DNA of 64,000 nt from Lachnospiraceae bacterium. Its GTDB lineage: Bacteria > Bacillota > Clostridia > Lachnospirales > Lachnospiraceae. The DNA lies in assembly GCA_017437065.1 (NCBI GenBank), contig JAFSBX010000132.1, forward strand, positions 1-64,000, read 5' to 3'. The position numbers and the translations under genes were made by a program. Below are positions 317-13,629 of the stretch, piece after piece. Position 1 is the first letter of the stretch. Each line of letters starts with the position of its first letter. Below the pieces are notes generated by a model, which saw nothing but the letters and a program-made list of their open reading frames with translations, made no database searches and was not told where the DNA came from.

Positions 317-3300
317 TTATTTTACTTCAACTCTATAAGTTTTTTTGACATTACTTCCATCCATCGATTTTATCGTAATAGTTGTCTTTCCTTCAGCTTT
401 TGCATAAAGTGTGATATAGCCTGGGATCTGATATCCCTCACTATCTTTTGCCCATTCTGCCCAAAGAATATCAGAATTACCAACCTCAATTGCTACATCC
501 GGACATATTCTACCATAATTTTCATCAGCATAATAAGATAAACCATCATAAAGTACTGGTACAAAAGCTTCCTCTTTAAGTGCAAATGTAGTAGTATATT
601 TAATATACTTAGTATCTTCCCAGAATCCGGCTAAATTCAATTTCTTATATGCTTCTGTAACATATACAATATAACCTATTCTTAAATTACTTCCGTCCTG
701 TGCCTTTGCCGTAATTTTAACCGCTCCTGCCGAAACACCTTTAACATTTCCTTGTTGATCTACCGTTGCAATATCTTTATTCGCTGACTCCCACTTAATT
801 TTTTTGGATGCAATCGAACCATAATCCTCACCCAATGTTGCTGTTAACTTTATTTTTTTGCCACATGCAACATAACCATCATTACCACCTTGTGGTGCAA
901 TAGTAATACTGGATATCGGATTTGCAACCTTTACTGTACAAGTTGCTTTCTTTCCACTTCCATCTGTTGCAACACATGTAATCTTGACTGTTCCGGCTGC
1001 CTTTCCGGTTGCCTTAACAACTGCTGTTGTTCCATTCTGTTCTACAGTTGCAATACCCGGATTACTGCTGATAAATTCTACCTCTTTAGATGTAGTATCC
1101 TTTTTACCAACTTTTGCCTTTACTGTAGCTTTAAGAGTCACAGATGTCTTCACATTATAATCACCACTCACACGGAAAATTGTGGCATTCTTAGAATCAA
1201 GCTCAATCTTATTAATAACATTATCCGAAATAGTAATTTTCTTTTCAGCACTTACCACTACCTCTTTACCATCCATAATCGTAGCAGTAATTGTGTATGA
1301 TCCTGGTGTAGCATTTTTAGCTGCTTTTACCGTACCATTTTTAATTGTAACACCTTTGCCTTTTTCTTTGATGTCCCATACTACTTTTTTACTTACAGCA
1401 TTTGTCGGTAAAACAGTTGCTGTCATCTTTGCTGACTTACCAAGAGCAATCTGGTCTGTTCCTGTTATTTTCAATTCCGTTGCTAACTGTTTTACATTTA
1501 ATGTAATAACTGCTTTTTTAGCACTTCCATCATTCGCAGTCGCAGTAATTTTAACTGTTCCAGCAGCTTTAACCGTTACAATTCCATCTTTGACATCAGC
1601 TACTTTATTGTTGCTTGTACTCCACTTAACATCACTGGCACTTCCATCTTTTCCATCTTTCAAAGTAACCTTTAAGTAAGTTTTCAAAAGGTTATATGTT
1701 GTTGTTCCTTTTCCTAATTTAACTGTATCTGATGTAACTTTCTTACTACCATTTTTAAACTCTACTTTCGAGACTCTCGTAGTATCTTTAAATGTAATTT
1801 CAAATTCTGCTGTTTCCTTACCATTATCCTTTGCTGTTGCTTTAATTTTATAAGTTTTTCCGTCAACCGCTTTTGCTGTAGCTGTTACTTTTCCCTTTTG
1901 AGTTACATTTAATTCAGGTGATAAGGATTCCCATGTTACATTCTTCTTTTCTGCATAACTCGGTGTTACCGTTGCCTTTAATGTAACACTTTTCCCCTTA
2001 ATAATTACATTTTCACCAGTAATCTGAATATCACTAACTAAAGGTTTAAAATTATAAGTTGCTGTTACTACTTTACTTGTTTTACCACAAGCATTTACAG
2101 CAATTGCTTTAACTGTAACTTTTGCTTTACCACCTACACTAAATGCTCCTGTATATTCATATGCGTTTGCACTAGGTAAACCATTTTTAAAAGTAGGTGT
2201 TTTTCCATCAATAGAATAGTAAATTTTATCTGCTGCTGATTTTGTCTGAATAGTGACTTTTAAACTCTCTGCTTTTACAGTCTGTGATTTGGTTACAAAT
2301 ACAGGTGCCTGCGGTGCTTTTACCATCGTTGAAAGCTTAAACACTTTTGTAAGAGAAACAATACCTGCTGCTCCACCGTTTCCTGCAATCTTACCACTAT
2401 TCATTTTCTTAATCAATGCATCTACTTTGTCTTTTCCTGTCTTTTTCTGTATAGATGCGTCAGCTGCCAAAATCACTGCTGCTGTACCACTGACAACAGG
2501 TGTTGCCTGTGATGTACCACTCATTACTGTGTAGTCTCCATTATTTGCTGTAGAATAAAGCATATATCCCGGTGCACTGAATTTTACCCATGAACCGTAA
2601 TTTGAAAAATATGCTCGTCCACCATTTTCCTGTACAGCACCAACACAAATTGCTCCCTCATAGCCTGCCGGATATGCTTTTATCTTACTTCCATCATTAC
2701 CTGCTGCAACAAAAACAGCAATACCCGCATTGTAGAGTTCTGACATAACCGTTGCTTCATTATTACTGTAAAGAGCACCACCAAGACTCATGTTAACAAT
2801 ATCTACTTTTTGATTAATAGACCAATCTTTTCCTGGTACACAGGATCTCATTCCTCGCAAAACTGAAGACGAACTACCAGTTCCAGTTGAACCACCAGCA
2901 TTACTCAATACCTTCATATTTATAATATTAGCATCAGGAGCAATACCTGCACCGCCAATACCATTACCTTTTTTTGCAGCCGCAAGACCTGCAACATGCG
3001 TTCCGTGTCCATTTCCATCGCTAGAATCGCTGTCCGTAGTGAAATTATAATTTGCAATTACATTCAAATCCTTATGTGCATAAACACCAGTATCCAAAAT
3101 AGCAATGTTAACACCTTTTCCTGTAAATCCTGCATTCCATGCATAAACAGATCCTAACATCTGATGTTGCCACTGATACCGACCATTACCAGCATTTAAA
3201 AGTGGATCATTATAATTGCTCGCAGCCACTGTATACGCATCACTATCTGCCACATCTTCATCCATTACTTCTACACCTGTAGTTCTTTTTTCCGTAACAG

Positions 3301-4126
3301 AACTGGTTGTGTATATATAGTTTGGCCAAGCCGGAGGGATAACTGTTTTTTCTCCGCTAGCTGTTGTAACCTCTGACTCTACCGCTGCATTCAACGCCTG
3401 CATTACGCTAACATCTTCTGATAACTTAATAACACCAACACCGTAAGCAAAGCTACTCAGTGTACCACCATATGCTTTGGCTATCATTTCTGCTTCTTCC
3501 TGTGTTTCTGCAAGAAATACCAATTCACCAGCAGTATAATCTTTACCTTCTCTCAAATCCTTAATTTCCGAAAGATAATTTGATAATTGCTTTCTGCTTT
3601 CTAACTGTTCTTTACTTAAAGAATAGTTCTCTAATCCCGGAAATTCTGAATTGTCATCAACTTCTGTTTCCGTCTCCACTTCTGTCTCTGTTTCAACTTC
3701 CGTTTCCGTCTCTACTTCTGTTTCTGTTTCAACTTCCGTTTCCGTCTCTACTTCTGTTTCTGCTCCAACTTCCGTTTCCATCTCTACTTCTGTTTCTGTC
3801 TCAACTTCTGTTTCCGTCTCCACTTCTGCCTCTGTTTCAACTTCCGTTTCCGTCTCTACTTCTGTTTCTGCTCCAACTTCCGTTTCCGTCTCTACTTCTG
3901 TTTCTGTTTCAACTTCCGTTTCTACCTTTACTTCTGTCTCTGTTTCAACTTCCGCTTCTGTCTCCACTACAGTTGTATTTTCTATTTCATTTTCCGTACT
4001 TTCTTCCATGATAATAGTTGTTCTATCAACTGTTGCATTTCCTGCTGCTAACGCTTCCCCTGCAGTTGTAAAAGTCATTACACCAGCAAGAAATAAAGCA
4101 AGTGCACTTTTCCAAAATCTCCTCAT
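317..4126 (-). CDS. Secreted subtilisin-like (S8) serine protease with acidic repeats and Ig-like domains
   Basis: A 1269-residue exported protease. Residues 1-27 form a Sec signal peptide. Residues about 57-156 are a low-complexity tract built on E-V-E-T-E-T. About 195-255 looks like an I9-type propeptide. The S8 domain spans roughly 310-600, with catalytic Asp345 (AILDTG), His374 (GHGTHVAG), oxyanion Asn477 (AAGND) and Ser539 (SGTSQATP). About 604-695 resembles a chitobiase C-terminal-type Ig fold (YYSIDGKTPTF). Several BIG2-like Ig repeats fill the rest. No LPXTG signal is present, so any surface retention must use the Ig or acidic parts. The start is supported by AGGGA six bases upstream of ATG. 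The family assignment is firm; the substrate is unknown. The next gene upstream encodes a protein that resembles its propeptide. Confidence 0.95.
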   Translation of the reverse strand: MRRFWKSALALFLAGVMTFTTAGEALAAGNATVDRTTIIMEESTENEIENTTVVETEAEVETETEVKVETEVETETEVETETEVGAETEVETETEVETEAEVETETEVETETEVEMETEVGAETEVETETEVETETEVETETEVETETEVETETEVDDNSEFPGLENYSLSKEQLESRKQLSNYLSEIKDLREGKDYTAGELVFLAETQEEAEMIAKAYGGTLSSFAYGVGVIKLSEDVSVMQALNAAVESEVTTASGEKTVIPPAWPNYIYTTSSVTEKRTTGVEVMDEDVADSDAYTVAASNYNDPLLNAGNGRYQWQHQMLGSVYAWNAGFTGKGVNIAILDTGVYAHKDLNVIANYNFTTDSDSSDGNGHGTHVAGLAAAKKGNGIGGAGIAPDANIINMKVLSNAGGSTGTGSSSSVLRGMRSCVPGKDWSINQKVDIVNMSLGGALYSNNEATVMSELYNAGIAVFVAAGNDGSKIKAYPAGYEGAICVGAVQENGGRAYFSNYGSWVKFSAPGYMLYSTANNGDYTVMSGTSQATPVVSGTAAVILAADASIQKKTGKDKVDALIKKMNSGKIAGNGGAAGIVSLTKVFKLSTMVKAPQAPVFVTKSQTVKAESLKVTIQTKSAADKIYYSIDGKTPTFKNGLPSANAYEYTGAFSVGGKAKVTVKAIAVNACGKTSKVVTATYNFKPLVSDIQITGENVIIKGKSVTLKATVTPSYAEKKNVTWESLSPELNVTQKGKVTATAKAVDGKTYKIKATAKDNGKETAEFEITFKDTTRVSKVEFKNGSKKVTSDTVKLGKGTTTYNLLKTYLKVTLKDGKDGSASDVKWSTSNNKVADVKDGIVTVKAAGTVKITATANDGSAKKAVITLNVKQLATELKITGTDQIALGKSAKMTATVLPTNAVSKKVVWDIKEKGKGVTIKNGTVKAAKNATPGSYTITATIMDGKEVVVSAEKKITISDNVINKIELDSKNATIFRVSGDYNVKTSVTLKATVKAKVGKKDTTSKEVEFISSNPGIATVEQNGTTAVVKATGKAAGTVKITCVATDGSGKKATCTVKVANPISSITIAPQGGNDGYVACGKKIKLTATLGEDYGSIASKKIKWESANKDIATVDQQGNVKGVSAGAVKITAKAQDGSNLRIGYIVYVTEAYKKLNLAGFWEDTKYIKYTTTFALKEEAFVPVLYDGLSYYADENYGRICPDVAIEVGNSDILWAEWAKDSEGYQIPGYITLYAKAEGKTTITIKSMDGSNVKKTYRVEVK
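3655..3955 (-). repeat. In-frame tandem repeat encoding E-V-E-T-E-T
   Basis: Short 18-bp-like units alternating GAAGTT/GAAACA/GAGACG codons encode about 100 residues of acidic linker inside the subtilase gene. Units differ mostly at third positions, with a few variants (GAETEV, EMETEV, KVETEV). The length is likely to vary between strains by slippage or recombination. Confidence 0.85.
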
Positions 4127-6721: not shown

Positions 6722-7603
6722 ATGAGTACACAGGAAAAAAAGAGTACTATTGAATCCGTCCGTACTGCTGAAGGATTTCTGCCGGAATATTCAGATTTTT
6801 ATTTTGAAAGAAAAAAACAGCCTTCTTTCTTTAAATATATATTAAGTTATCTGTTTATCATTTTTCTAATTTGCTTAATAGACATTGATTATAATAATAA
6901 GAAATCCCCCGGATTTTTAACAATTATCGGCATCGCTGTTCTTCTATATCAACTATTTATTAAAAAACACATTATCGACCACAAGAAACTGTATGGTGCA
7001 AAATTGGAATACCATGGCATTGTCAAAGTATCGGCTTATGGTGAACAACCTCCTGTTTCTTATCAGGAAATAGAACAGGCTGTTGCAGCCGGAGATTTCC
7101 GTTATGAAGACACAGGACTTAGAATCGGAAGCGGAACACAAAAACTGCTTTTTCATTACGAAATCGGAGATTCCATAGCCCAAAAACACGTGGAAGAATG
7201 CTATGCATTATTACAAAAGCATCTTAATATTAAACTTCCACCTTTTGAGAAGAAAGGACTGGATTTACTGGACCGCAAATATTTTTATGAAAAAAAATGT
7301 AAAACTCATACTATTTCCCTGATTTGTGCATTGATTATCTTTTTTATTTATTATAGTGCAAGTGTTCGTCACATAAGTAATATGTATTTTCTTGCATCTT
7401 TATTTTGCCCTTGGGAATGTTTTTCACTATATTGTCTTAGCAAAAACGGAAAACTGGCTGTAAGAAATCGTATGCTTTTGCAAAAAGCTTTTCAGGATTA
7501 CCCTCAGGTCAGATTCGGATGGCAATATGCCGGATATGCACATTTCCTGATTACTGCATTGCTATTAATATTGGGCAATTATTTTATTATTTCCTTTTTT
7601 TAA
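6722..7603 (+). CDS. Membrane protein of unknown function, first gene of the radical SAM operon
   Basis: 293 residues. Two membrane segments lie near 36-55 and 63-85. A soluble cytoplasmic-looking domain at about 90-190 (KLEYHGIVKVSAYGEQPPVSYQEIE...) alternates strands and ends in an amphipathic helix. Two more membrane segments lie at about 206-245, and a final one at 273-292. The layout resembles YcxB-type membrane proteins, but the match is loose. A consensus AAAGGAG stands six bases upstream of the ATG. It is 39 bp upstream of the radical SAM gene and shares its promoter. It may anchor, export or sense the modified downstream product; this is inference from position only. Confidence 0.75.
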   Translation: MSTQEKKSTIESVRTAEGFLPEYSDFYFERKKQPSFFKYILSYLFIIFLICLIDIDYNNKKSPGFLTIIGIAVLLYQLFIKKHIIDHKKLYGAKLEYHGIVKVSAYGEQPPVSYQEIEQAVAAGDFRYEDTGLRIGSGTQKLLFHYEIGDSIAQKHVEECYALLQKHLNIKLPPFEKKGLDLLDRKYFYEKKCKTHTISLICALIIFFIYYSASVRHISNMYFLASLFCPWECFSLYCLSKNGKLAVRNRMLLQKAFQDYPQVRFGWQYAGYAHFLITALLLILGNYFIISFF

Positions 7604-7642: not shown

Positions 7643-9016
7643 ATGTTAAAAGAAAAACTATATGAACTAAAAAACTGGAAATCCGTCATACACACTACCT
7701 GGAATCCAAAAGGTCCCGGCGTTATCCGCATTCACATGATACCACCCAAATTTCGCCTGTTTCGTACTGCCCCTTCAATTGTTATTTTGAATGGACAGGA
7801 CATTTTACCGTTAAATGAATCCTGGGCAATTCTTTTGACAGAATTCATCCATCGTGTAAATGCTTTTGGTCCTCACGAAATGAATGAACAGGAATTACAG
7901 GGTATTTTACAGGATGTTTTCCATCAAATGCGAAAGGTTTACCCTTCCGTTTCAGACGAACAGCTGAAAGGCGACTTAGAAATTATTATAAATACTTTTG
8001 AATCCGTTATCCGCAAAGAAATTCCCGAACAGGAAATCGGTCTTTTAACCATCGGCGAATATGCCCCTTTTATGACCGCGCCTCACCGCATGGATCTGAT
8101 GATTTCCGCCATGACAAAAAACGGCGTCTGGCATTGTAATCAAAAATGCCTCCATTGCTATGCTGCAGGGCAAAGCCTCTCCGAAACTCCTGAACTTTCT
8201 ACAAAGGAATGGAAAGATATTATTGTCGCCTGCCATAAAGCCAAAATACCGCAACTCACTTTTACAGGTGGTGAACCTACGCTCAGGGACGATTTGTGCG
8301 AATTAATTGCAGAAGCAAAATGGTTTGTTACCCGCTTAAATACAAATGGTGTGCTGCTTACTTCCTCCCTCTGTGAAAAATTGATGGAAGCAGAACTGGA
8401 CAGTGTGCAGATTACGTTTTATTCTCATGACAAAACCATTCACAATGAACTGGTAGGGGCTGATAATTACGATAAAACCGTAGCCGGTATCAAAAATGCA
8501 CTGGCTGCCGGATTAAATGTCAGCATTAACACACCTTTATGCAATAAAAACAAAAATTATAAGGAAACATTAGTCTTTCTAAAAAAACTCGGTGTGGAAT
8601 ATGTCACCTGTTCCGGTCTGATTGTAACAGGCAATGCTGCAAAAGAAGCTTCCACCGCCACACAGCTTACTTCTGATGAAATTTATGAAACATTAAAAGA
8701 GGCGACTGCTTACTGCTTTGCAAACGGCATGGAAATTAATTTTACTTCTCCGGGTTGGATTTCTGAAGACAGGCTGCATGAAATGGGGCTTGACATTCCA
8801 TCCTGTGGTGCCTGCTTAAGCAATATGGCAATTACACCAAACGGTAAAGTAATCCCTTGTCAAAGCTGGCTTGGCGGCGAAGTTCTGGGGGATATGAAAA
8901 CTGACCGTTTTTCCAAAATATGGAATCATCCCGCCTGTAAAAAGCACAGAATATTCTCAGCGAAAATGGAACAGACTTGTCCTCTTCGCGGAAAGGCAGG
9001 GAATGCAAAATGTTAA
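7643..9016 (+). CDS. Radical SAM/SPASM peptide-maturase-like enzyme with N-terminal RRE-like domain
   Basis: 457 residues. The radical SAM cluster is Cys165-x3-Cys169-x2-Cys172 (CNQKCLHCY), followed by GGEP at 209-212 and a complete TIM-barrel region. The C-terminal part is SPASM-like with Cys388, 391, 406, 432, 446 and 457, enough for auxiliary Fe-S clusters. Residues about 33-125 (SIVILNGQDILPLNES...) resemble the PqqD-type recognition fold that binds precursor peptides. Such enzymes install thioether, C-C or epimer changes in peptides. AGGAGG lies seven bases before the ATG. The stop overlaps the start of the next gene (ATGTTAA), so the two are translationally coupled; the partner carries a (Cys-Ala)6 tract. 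The chemistry is not predictable from sequence. Confidence 0.9.
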   Translation: MLKEKLYELKNWKSVIHTTWNPKGPGVIRIHMIPPKFRLFRTAPSIVILNGQDILPLNESWAILLTEFIHRVNAFGPHEMNEQELQGILQDVFHQMRKVYPSVSDEQLKGDLEIIINTFESVIRKEIPEQEIGLLTIGEYAPFMTAPHRMDLMISAMTKNGVWHCNQKCLHCYAAGQSLSETPELSTKEWKDIIVACHKAKIPQLTFTGGEPTLRDDLCELIAEAKWFVTRLNTNGVLLTSSLCEKLMEAELDSVQITFYSHDKTIHNELVGADNYDKTVAGIKNALAAGLNVSINTPLCNKNKNYKETLVFLKKLGVEYVTCSGLIVTGNAAKEASTATQLTSDEIYETLKEATAYCFANGMEINFTSPGWISEDRLHEMGLDIPSCGACLSNMAITPNGKVIPCQSWLGGEVLGDMKTDRFSKIWNHPACKKHRIFSAKMEQTCPLRGKAGNAKC

Positions 9017-9963
9017 AACAACTACGAAAAATATTATTGATTCCTCTTTTTGTGGGATTACTGTTTTTCAGTAATATCACTGCCATTAAAGTAAATGCAG
9101 CGCTACCTTTGGATAGAATTCATGAGTATACAATAAATGTAACACCCTATTCCGATGGTTCACTTTATATAGAATATCATATTAAATGGGAAGTACTGGA
9201 CAGTGTTGCAGAAGGTCCCTTAAGCTGGGTTAAAATTGGTATTCCTAATAATCATGTGGAAGAAATCACCGCCCGAAGCAACAATATAGATAAAATAAGA
9301 TATTATCAGGAAGATGGCGACTATGTCCGAATTGACCTTGACCGTGAATATTATAAAGGTGCGATTATTGATATTGATTTCTCCATTCATCAGCACCACA
9401 TGTATGAGATGGACGGAACTAATCGTGTTTACACCTTTACTCCGGGTTGGTTTGATGATATTTATGTCGTTTATATGTGCATTAATTGGAATATGGAAAA
9501 TGTCACCGATGCTTCCGGCAACTATTATGAAGATGGTAACAACCTCTGTTGGACAGACGACTTATCTAAAGGCGAAAAATACACCATACAACTGACTTAT
9601 CCCGACAGTGTATTTTCCGGACCCGATGACAGTAATGTAAGTGCAAGTGATGAAGGTGACACTATTTTAATTATTGCATTGGTGTTAATTCCTGCTATAT
9701 TTGCTTTATTTGTTGTTTGCTGCACCAAAATTGGTACAAAGGATTCCTATACCAAACATAGCGGAATGGGCGCAGTGTATGCCCCAGGTACACACAGCCA
9801 TGGTGGCAGAAGCGGTGGAGGATGCGCTTGCGCCTGTGCATGTGCCTGCGCATGTGCCGGCGGAGGACGTGCAGGATGCTCTACGAAAGATTTTTATGGA
9901 ACAAAGTTAACTACGCTCAAAATTCGTAAAGCATTAAACAACACCATCGTTCCTTCCGACTAA
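9010..9963 (+). CDS. Type I membrane protein with cytosolic (Cys-Ala)6-Gly-rich tail, likely radical SAM substrate
   Basis: 317 residues from the ATG that overlaps the radical SAM stop. Residues 1-30 are a signal peptide. About 32-215 is a beta-rich extracytoplasmic domain whose opening (EYTINVTPYSDGSLYIEYHI) recalls DUF2207-like ectodomains. A membrane segment spans 218-238. The tail (239-317) is cytosolic by this topology. It holds GGRSGGG, then six Cys-Ala pairs at 272-283, GGGRAGC (Cys290) and a basic end. The pairs use mixed codons (TGC/TGT, GCT/GCC/GCA), so the repeat looks held by protein selection. The coupling to a SPASM enzyme suggests the cysteines are modified after translation; metal binding is the alternative. 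Its function is unknown. Confidence 0.88.
   Translation: MLKQLRKILLIPLFVGLLFFSNITAIKVNAALPLDRIHEYTINVTPYSDGSLYIEYHIKWEVLDSVAEGPLSWVKIGIPNNHVEEITARSNNIDKIRYYQEDGDYVRIDLDREYYKGAIIDIDFSIHQHHMYEMDGTNRVYTFTPGWFDDIYVVYMCINWNMENVTDASGNYYEDGNNLCWTDDLSKGEKYTIQLTYPDSVFSGPDDSNVSASDEGDTILIIALVLIPAIFALFVVCCTKIGTKDSYTKHSGMGAVYAPGTHSHGGRSGGGCACACACACACAGGGRAGCSTKDFYGTKLTTLKIRKALNNTIVPSD
9823..9858 (+). repeat. Six tandem Cys-Ala codon pairs
   Basis: Twelve codons encode (Cys-Ala)6 with non-identical synonymous codons, flanked on both sides by Gly-Gly-Gly. This is the proposed core of a modified peptide segment. Confidence 0.95.
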
Positions 9964-11938: not shown

Positions 11939-12817
11939 TTATCCAAAAATATCTAATACATCAGAGAGTACACCTAATGCTTTTCCTGCAGTTCCCGTAG
12001 CGCTTGTTTTACTCTGGCTTTCACCTGTATTACTGCTTGATGCTGCCGGATTCGCTGAAAAATTGGCTGCCGTCGGTGCCAGTAAAATCTTTCCGCTTCC
12101 ACGATATACATTTACAAAACCTTCACCGGATACAGCGGAACCAAGTAAACTCTTACCCGATTTTTCTACTGTAAAATCTAAAGAACCGGACCATGCAATC
12201 GCCATATTTCCGTCAATCTTCATAACATCATTATCCAGTACAACCTCTATTAATTCTTCGTAAGGCACATAACTTTCTAATGCAGCAATTCCGTTGCCTG
12301 ATAAGGATAAGTTAAACAACCCTTCTCCACCTAATACTGCTGAAGACAAGTTCTTTCTTGCAACTGTCTGCTGTGTCAGACTGCCATCACAAGCTAAAAA
12401 CAAGCCATCATCTAAAACGATAGTTCCCCACTGTGATACATCTACTAAAATAATATAGCGATATGTAGGCTCCAACATCATTCTACCGCTACCCTGATAA
12501 ATCGGTTTTATTGCACTTTCACTTGTCACTGCAGAGCTTACCATTTTCCCAAGAAAATCTCCTACACCCTTTACATTGGTGTTCGTATTGACATTTCCGC
12601 TCATCCACTGCATGGCTCCTGCCTGTACAATATAGCTGCTGTTTTCAAAGTCCAGCATAAGCTGTCTCTTTCTCACATTCATTTTCGATGAAAAATAATA
12701 ATCTACTGCTGAATATGCTGAAACACTTAAATCTTTTTCATGTTCAAGCACATGATAGTTACCCATTGATGCAATTTCTTTTAAATTGCGATTATTCATA
12801 ATACTGCTGTTTACCAT
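11939..12817 (-). CDS. AIM24-family protein (second of a tandem pair)
   Basis: 292 residues. The core (about 20-245) has the beta-rich AIM24/TIGR00266 fold, with repeated glycine motifs such as GAMQWMSGNV, GNGIAALES and GSAVSGEGFVNVYRGSGKILLAP. A Ser/Ala/Thr-rich tail at about 255-280 ends in a short hydrophobic helix (GKALGVLSDVLDIFG) absent from its neighbour. It shares most of its core with the gene 56 bp upstream, so the pair arose by duplication. Bacterial family members have no firmly established role. No signal peptide is seen. Confidence 0.88.
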   Translation of the reverse strand: MVNSSIMNNRNLKEIASMGNYHVLEHEKDLSVSAYSAVDYYFSSKMNVRKRQLMLDFENSSYIVQAGAMQWMSGNVNTNTNVKGVGDFLGKMVSSAVTSESAIKPIYQGSGRMMLEPTYRYIILVDVSQWGTIVLDDGLFLACDGSLTQQTVARKNLSSAVLGGEGLFNLSLSGNGIAALESYVPYEELIEVVLDNDVMKIDGNMAIAWSGSLDFTVEKSGKSLLGSAVSGEGFVNVYRGSGKILLAPTAANFSANPAASSSNTGESQSKTSATGTAGKALGVLSDVLDIFG

Positions 12818-12873
12818 CTTTGTCCTCCATTTATCCGAAACCTTCTGACTAAAAATCTCCGATTTTCAGTTCC

Positions 12874-13629
12874 TTACGCTGTAGGTGCCATTAAAATCTT
12901 ACCTGTTCCACGGTAAACATTAACAAGGCCTTCACCGGATACAGCAGAACCAAGCAGACTCTTACCTGATTTTTCTACTGTAAATTCCAGAGAACCTGAC
13001 CACGCAATCGCCATGTTACCATCAATTTTTACTACGTCATTTTCCAGATTAAACTCAATTAATTCTTCCTTCGGTACAGGACTTTCCAAAACAGCAATTC
13101 CGTTACCCATAAGTGATAAATTGAATAATCCTTCATTTCCTAATACTGCGGAAGATAAATTTGATCTTGCTACAGTCTTCTGCTGAAGTGAATCTTCACA
13201 GGCAAGGAACAGGCCGTCATCCAATACGACACTTCCCCACTCTGATACATCCATTAAAATAATATGTTTATATGTAGGCTCTAACATCATTACACCATTT
13301 CCGCGATAGATAGGTTTAATTGCAGATTCCTTTGTTACTGCTGCACTTGCCATTTTTCCAAGGAAGTTACCAACACCTTTTACACCGGTTTCCATATTTA
13401 CATTTCCAAGCATCCACTGCATAGCGCCTGCCTGTGTAATACATCCGCGATTCTGTAATTCCACAAAAACCTGACGTTTTCTGACATTCATTTCTGATGA
13501 AAAATATGCCGTAACAGCACTTGCCGGATGCACGCTCAAATCCTTTTCATGTTCAAAAACACGGAATGGTCCTTTCTGATCGATTACTTTCATGTTCTGG
13601 TTGTTTAAAAAATTGTTTAACTGAAACAT
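12874..13629 (-). CDS. AIM24-family protein (first of a tandem pair)
   Basis: 251 residues with the AIM24/TIGR00266 fold across nearly the whole length (HEKDLSVHPASAVTAYFSSEMNVRKRQ ... GAMQWMLGNV ... GSAVSGEGLVNVYRGTGKILMAPTA). It ends at the point where its paralog adds a low-complexity tail. The two are co-oriented and probably one operon, read from the promoter at 13668-13696. It is cytoplasmic by sequence. Function is unknown. Confidence 0.88.
   Translation of the reverse strand: MFQLNNFLNNQNMKVIDQKGPFRVFEHEKDLSVHPASAVTAYFSSEMNVRKRQVFVELQNRGCITQAGAMQWMLGNVNMETGVKGVGNFLGKMASAAVTKESAIKPIYRGNGVMMLEPTYKHIILMDVSEWGSVVLDDGLFLACEDSLQQKTVARSNLSSAVLGNEGLFNLSLMGNGIAVLESPVPKEELIEFNLENDVVKIDGNMAIAWSGSLEFTVEKSGKSLLGSAVSGEGLVNVYRGTGKILMAPTA

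Follow-up and report, generated by a model that had tools for sequence, protein, structure and literature searches.

The window analyzed here (the whole 64,000-nucleotide stretch, positions 1 to 64,000 of contig JAFSBX010000132.1 from a Lachnospiraceae bacterium, assembly GCA_017437065.1) carries a gene for a radical S-adenosylmethionine (SAM) enzyme coupled to a gene for a membrane protein whose C-terminal tail contains a Cys-Ala repeat. The enzyme and the tail protein form a conserved unit, and their pairing is strongly supported. The reading modestly favored by the evidence is that the enzyme cross-links a Cys-Ala tail, most likely through thioethers, and that this tail stays anchored in the membrane. 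The features of the two genes are as follows.

7643 to 9016, forward strand: radical SAM enzyme of 457 amino acids with an RRE-like N-terminal domain and a SPASM/Twitch-type C-terminal domain (open reading frame, Pfam, conservation, structure model).
7643 to 8047, forward strand: RRE-like N-terminal region, residues 1-135, modeled as a helix, four strands and three helices (AlphaFold2 model; SuiB and SkfB alignments extend into the region).
8135 to 8158, forward strand: CNQKCLHC, the CX3CX2C motif for the SAM-binding [4Fe-4S] cluster (its three Cys unchanged across 51 sequences).
8804 to 8980, forward strand: SPASM/Twitch-like auxiliary cluster region with Cys 388, 391, 406, 432 and 446 (Pfam SPASM, 38.8 bits; conservation).
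9010 to 9963, forward strand: tail protein of 317 amino acids, a single-pass membrane protein with a C-terminal Cys-Ala tail (open reading frame, relatives, model).
9010 to 9105, forward strand: signal-peptide-like hydrophobic N-terminus (model helix 2-23; N-terminus hydrophobic in 99 of 100 members).
9106 to 9624, forward strand: predicted extracellular beta-sandwich, residues 33-205, with a ribophorin-I-like fold, remotely DUF2207.
9658 to 9726, forward strand: transmembrane helix, residues 217-239 (model and topology signals).
9823 to 9858, forward strand: (Cys-Ala)6 repeat, residues 272-283, flanked by Gly triplets (pattern searches, tail alignment).
9868 to 9897, forward strand: RAGCSTKDFY motif with invariant C290, likely part of a recognition or modified segment (invariant columns).

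The two genes share the 7 bases from 9010 to 9016, confirming the overlap with a (Cys-Ala)6-tailed membrane-protein gene that a preliminary description of this DNA had reported. An identical 7-base overlap is present in the nearest relative, L071, in which the enzyme ends at 7389 and the tail gene starts at 7383. A mechanical list of open reading frames had placed the start of the tail protein at TTG 8977; because the nearest relative supports the ATG at 9010, the latter was taken as the start.

Co-occurrence of the two genes was surveyed in 397 genomes of the window's family and in a class-level set of 341 genomes, with the window's own genome in both. In the family set, the enzyme (E <=1e-30) was found in 27 genomes, the tail protein (E 0.001) in 29, and the repeat, as the DNA pattern (CA)4GG, in 20. 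The tail protein adjoins the enzyme in all 27 enzyme genomes, one of which (G379) has its enzyme split across two contigs. All 20 genomes with the pattern are enzyme genomes, and a backwards control pattern gave no match among the family-set matches listed. The candidate explanation that (CA)n tails occur on many protein types was rejected because of this confinement. The two extra tail-protein genomes are weak cases. In G013 the match lies in a frame of 1194 amino acids, and in G107 a homologue of 26% identity was found, with no enzyme in the genome at E 1e-30 or in the surrounding 12 kb. Tail-protein homologues commonly lacking the enzyme, which would have spoken against the proposed coupling, were thus not found, as the sole clear case, G107, is also without the Cys tail.

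In the class-level set, a profile built from 51 enzyme sequences gave 14 matches at E 1e-40, including 8 at <=1e-155. All 8 close enzymes are accompanied by a tail-protein gene. The tail gene lies whole beside the enzyme in five genomes (G000, G544, G654, G708, G719) and is cut by a contig end in G610 and G648. A second, whole tail gene is present on another short contig of G610; in G648 the gene is cut in its Gly-rich part, and another contig begins with a matching tail end. The (CA)4 pattern was found in 11 of the 341 genomes, compared with 1 for the backwards control. These 11 are the 8 close-enzyme genomes and G434, G476 and G502, which have no enzyme at E 1e-40; the last three were rejected as carriers of tail proteins, since by eye their matches fall in a frame of 23 amino acids, in a low-complexity frame at the end of a contig and in one that continues into a DnaE-like protein. 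Some individual irregularities can be seen in the class-level loci. The enzyme frame of G648 (L192:5963-7345) has one internal stop, the tail gene of G727 (L193:3660-6592) is in two pieces with transposase-like reading frames (by eye) between them, and two tandem Cys-Ala tail proteins precede a single enzyme in G654 (L188:3782-5709).

A further sample consisted of the best 80 named loci from at least 505 relatives (tblastn at E 1e-3, 587 stretches), with 55-85% identity; it overlaps the genome sets in at least 3 cases (L098 = G002, L146 = G025, L171 = G610). According to their titles, these loci belong mainly to Lachnospiraceae and other Clostridia of the rumen and gut, and they include the cultured Roseburia inulinivorans DSM 16841 and Butyrivibrio hungatei XBD2006. 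Isolated records bear the labels Spirochaetes, Saccharibacteria and Eggerthellaceae, possibly through misbinning. In 73 of the 80 loci the tail gene is complete and includes RAGC, the order being enzyme-tail in 64, tail-enzyme in 8 and divergent in 1. Contig ends truncate the tail gene in L128, L136, L155 and L171, with the Cys-Ala part visible only in L136; just the tail end, before the enzyme, is visible in L113, and no tail gene is visible on the 3.2 kb contig of L130. In L147 (5365-6350) the tail repeat is frame-shifted relative to the ectodomain, through an assembly error or a frameshift, and this gene was not counted as complete. The tail gene was therefore seen in 79 of the 80 best named loci, 76 of which also show the Cys-Ala tail, so that, together with the full agreement in the 27 family-set and 8 class-level genomes above, the co-occurrence check proposed in the preliminary description turned out in favor of the pairing.

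An operon can contain genes whose actions are unrelated, and the two genes could be operon neighbors only, with the enzyme acting elsewhere. This is very improbable, as the genes stay paired where their order is reversed or divergent and where the surroundings vary. The surroundings were surveyed in 28 loci from 27 genomes, some of which end near the pair, with open reading frames clustered by BLAST. Beyond an optional membrane protein and reading frames overlapping the pair, no neighbor family was present in more than 4 of the 28 loci, although remote kinship would escape BLAST clustering. Because the pairing holds in both directions and persists when gene order and surroundings change, the tail is very likely the substrate of the enzyme.

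The composition of the tail was examined in 97 distinct tails with RAGC from the family-genome and named-locus sets. In the window, the tail reads GGG-(CA)6-GGG-R287-A-G-C290-S-T-K-D-F-Y. Across the 97 tails, 4-10 Cys (median 7) precede RAGC, spaced mostly by 2 residues (461 cases) and otherwise by 4 (62), 5 (59) or 3 (7). The residue after the 686 repeat Cys is Ala in 666 cases, Val in 19 and Gly in 1, and the spacers are mostly Ser and His. The segment before the motif is GGGRAGC in 82 tails, SSGRAGC in 10 and GSGRAGC in 5. Residues C276-A283, G286-R-A-G-C290, K293 and F295 are invariant in 27 sequences, and conservation is highest in RAGC-x-x-KDF, C-terminal to the repeat. A divergent branch (G719, G727, G648) has RVGCSERGY in place of the RAGC motif. 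Over 20 codons from the first CA, the window and L098 differ in 10 of 60 bases and in 0 of 20 residues; Cys is encoded by TGT 395 times and by TGC 291 times in the 97 tails, and Ala by all four codons. The repeat is thus maintained at the protein level, as had been noticed at first from the mixed codons of the window.

The enzyme meets the Pfam threshold for the radical SAM superfamily (Radical_SAM, 71.5 bits, cut-off 29.5). Its cluster motif, C165-x3-C169-x2-C172, retains all three Cys across the 51 sequences, and its AlphaFold2 model, with a predicted local distance difference test (pLDDT) score of 90.5, aligns with many radical SAM structures, the best fits being the peptide maturases SkfB and SuiB. 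The preliminary description had called it a SPASM enzyme with an RRE-like N-terminus, and each half of this description holds in part. The Pfam SPASM model does score above its cut-off (38.8 bits, cut-off 21.5); however, a full SPASM domain has seven Cys for two auxiliary clusters. Because only five Cys of the C-terminal iron-sulphur region are well conserved (388, 391, 406, 432, 446), this domain appears, as judged from sequence, to resemble the single-cluster Twitch domain of SkfB more closely. Similarly, the RRE-like fold is present in the structure model, in which strands are followed by three helices and into which the SuiB and SkfB alignments reach, but neither the Pfam scan nor a separate sequence search gave an RRE match for the N-terminus. 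Only Radical_SAM, SPASM and Fer4_12 scored above their Pfam cut-offs. Among the NCBIfam matches listed (25 of 58), none reaches its cut-off; the enzyme is a member neither of the SkfB family TIGR04403 (rSAM_skfB; 46.2 bits, cut-off 300) nor of TIGR04133, radical SAM enzymes with a lipoprotein (70.4 bits, cut-off 425). No named family for the enzyme subgroup or the tail was therefore found among the NCBIfam and Pfam matches listed, in agreement with the first impression. Another protein, of 268 amino acids (L015:80-886), shows 25% identity to the N-terminal part of the enzyme (residues 7-164) without CX3CX2C; it adjoins genes that by eye resemble SufB and SufC.

As the nearest structure is a sactisynthase, Cys is kept in each repeat and only small residues follow it, thioether formation is likely and is the leading chemistry. 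The tail could instead be modified by SuiB-like or other radical chemistry, such as epimerisation of Ala, formation of C-C bonds, or oxidation or methylthiolation of Cys; this is considered unlikely, though it is the strongest of the alternatives.

The six remaining class-level matches (G518, G627, G635, G713, G730, G738) represent a second radical SAM family. In all six genomes the enzyme comes directly after a membrane protein of 564-579 amino acids ending in 8-9 CH[SD]A repeats and CVSGGAR. Pfam was run on the G635 set, in which the enzyme matches Radical_SAM and SPASM and the tail protein gives a DUF2207 match of E 0.0012 that falls short of the gathering score; no NCBIfam cut-off was reached by the G635 enzyme among the matches listed (25 of 79). 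In the enzyme tree, the (CA)n enzymes and the divergent branch form one clade (99/99) and the CHSA enzymes another (100/100). Two very long outgroup branches fall among these clades, so that the two families may or may not be sisters. The loci of this second family are L194, L195, L196, L217, L218 and L219, with a DUF2207-like tail protein where tested (L196), and in L194-L196 the pair is followed by a third protein of 324-341 amino acids that is membrane-like by eye.

CXC and Cys/His-rich sequences bind metals. The Cys array could thus be unmodified, binding metal or sensing redox state or zinc, with the enzyme reading or using the tail without cross-linking it. The Cys-His repeats of the second family would fit such a role, as would a zinc-ribbon-like segment between the membrane and the tail in many longer members, although its Pfam matches are weak and the commonest model matches 6 of 51 relatives. 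However, metal binding would not demand Ala behind almost every Cys, and the pairing with a radical enzyme bearing a peptide-binding-type domain would be left unexplained. An unmodified array is accordingly regarded as improbable, and a cross-linked tail is preferred.

The tail protein consists of a hydrophobic N-terminal segment, an ectodomain, a transmembrane helix at about 217-239, and then GGG, (CA)6, GGG and RAGCSTKDFY; complete members have roughly 300-490 amino acids. The ectodomain is conserved and confidently folded in the model, in which it is predicted to be a ribophorin-I-like sandwich remotely related to DUF2207. No Pfam or NCBIfam family, DUF2207 (PF09972) included, scored above its cut-off for the window protein; weak DUF2207 matches were obtained for 7 of 27 relatives and for 11 of 51 at E <=0.01 (best 3.8e-05). 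From the topology signals, the Cys-Ala tail is most likely on the cytosolic side, which is the side of the enzyme, as previously proposed. A mutant of a DUF2207 protein in S. mutans has stress-tolerance and biofilm defects, according to the available part of PMC10457818. By analogy, this phenotype offers a hint only to the function of the tail protein, which is perhaps in envelope stress or sensing.

The unit could also be a cryptic system for a ribosomally synthesized and post-translationally modified peptide (RiPP), with the tail serving as a membrane-anchored core peptide that is cleaved at a later stage and then released or exported. A conserved precursor, an RRE-like enzyme and the Gly-rich sequence that precedes the repeat in many members are in keeping with such a system. 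The partner is a membrane protein, not the short precursor peptide with a leader that characterizes sactipeptides and ranthipeptides. The conserved, confidently folded carrier ectodomain and the position of RAGC-x-x-KDF count against release. No recurrent family of dedicated proteases or exporters was seen near the pair in the 28 loci, where neighbors were clustered and not named, nor is any neighbor family recurrent enough for such a function. Release is therefore held to be a minor possibility. Since no dedicated protease or exporter is apparent and the motif that is conserved follows the repeat, the modified tail likely stays on the protein.

In the proposed mechanism, the two genes would constitute a self-contained modification unit. 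The membrane protein would be exported by its signal peptide and anchored by one helix, placing the ribophorin-like domain outside and the flexible, Gly/His/Ser-rich tail inside. The RRE-like domain of the cytosolic enzyme would grip the tail, probably at G-R-A-G-C-[ST]-x-K-D-F, and SAM radical chemistry would then cross-link the Cys-Ala array at several points, most likely from Cys sulphur to a carbon of a small residue. The unreleased tail would give the membrane protein a rigid, multi-ring or metal-ready cytosolic portion.

The known products of radical SAM peptide maturases are mainly small secreted peptides and cofactors. The evidence leans slightly toward a general clostridial class of RiPP-like systems tethered to the membrane, in which dedicated radical SAM enzymes of two families, (CA)n-GGG-RAGC and (CH[SD]A)n, would cross-link the cytosolic Cys-repeat tails of ribophorin-fold or DUF2207-like surface proteins, giving a permanent modified domain and no released peptide. 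If this is true, radical SAM maturase chemistry extends to permanent parts of membrane proteins, and DUF2207-like proteins gain a testable molecular feature. The unit is widespread in gut and rumen Clostridia, and it is directly testable because it is present in the two cultured gut bacteria named above.

Several other features of the window and of the pair's surroundings were recorded. The optional neighbor is an upstream membrane protein (6722 to 7603, forward strand), present in 7 of 28 and 7 of 80 loci and without a Pfam match. Scans for promoters and terminators gave counts near those of shuffles (18 vs 13.7, standard deviation 3.5; 4 vs 3.9). At 317-4126, reverse strand, a large protein resembles by eye a subtilisin-type protease with immunoglobulin-like repeats and has a long low-complexity Thr-Glu-Val repeat near its N-terminus. 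A tandem related pair of 292 and 251 amino acids, which we take to be AIM24-like, lies at 11939-13629, reverse strand. A mobile-element origin of the unit was considered and found unsupported, as at E 1e-20 there was no match to a plasmid record. Among 50,697 phage records there is one match (MT837216.1, L222). It is labelled Bacteriophage sp., is an unverified human-feces scaffold without annotation, carries the complete pair of enzyme and Cys-Ala tail, and is probably a bacterial contig.

No account of the enzyme/tail pair was found in the open PubMed Central (PMC) literature; subscription papers and preprints, which lie mostly outside it, could hold one. In the accessible portion of PMC9062424, Asp-Cys repeats are listed and no Cys-Ala repeat is named, and a word search of PMC8326336 gave no match. 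Among known proteins, SkfB is the first match to the window enzyme by sequence profile and by structure (tied with SuiB in VIA-align), and the two appear, as far as the sources on SkfB extend, to have in common a three-domain layout of RRE-like, radical SAM and Twitch-like domains. The substrate of the sactisynthase SkfB, the sporulation killing factor SkfA, is a small released peptide, whereas the candidate substrate here is the tail of a membrane protein. CteB, the SCIFF ranthipeptide maturase, is also among the nearest structures and is likewise a thioether maturase with a Cys-containing substrate, but in the sources at hand it has a full SPASM domain, carries two auxiliary clusters and acts on a peptide, in contrast to the five conserved C-terminal Cys and the membrane-protein partner described here. 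The DUF2207 (PF09972) proteins have a remotely related ectodomain; their Pfam title and the sources at hand mention no Cys-Ala tail with a partner enzyme. TIGR04133 and TIGR04134, judged by their family names, similarly pair a radical SAM/SPASM enzyme with a membrane-attached partner, but that partner is a lipoprotein, and only 1 of 27 tail proteins matches, at chance level (E 0.043). A precedent for several thioethers within a protein subunit is provided by quinohemoprotein amine dehydrogenase, in which, according to the available text of PMC7876137, the radical SAM enzyme QhpD forms three Cys thioethers within the QhpC protein subunit in the cytoplasm. QhpC as described there differs in having a cleaved leader, export of the subunit and links to Asp/Glu, whereas the unit in the window has no dedicated protease seen nearby and a repeat with Ala, Ser and His and no Asp/Glu.
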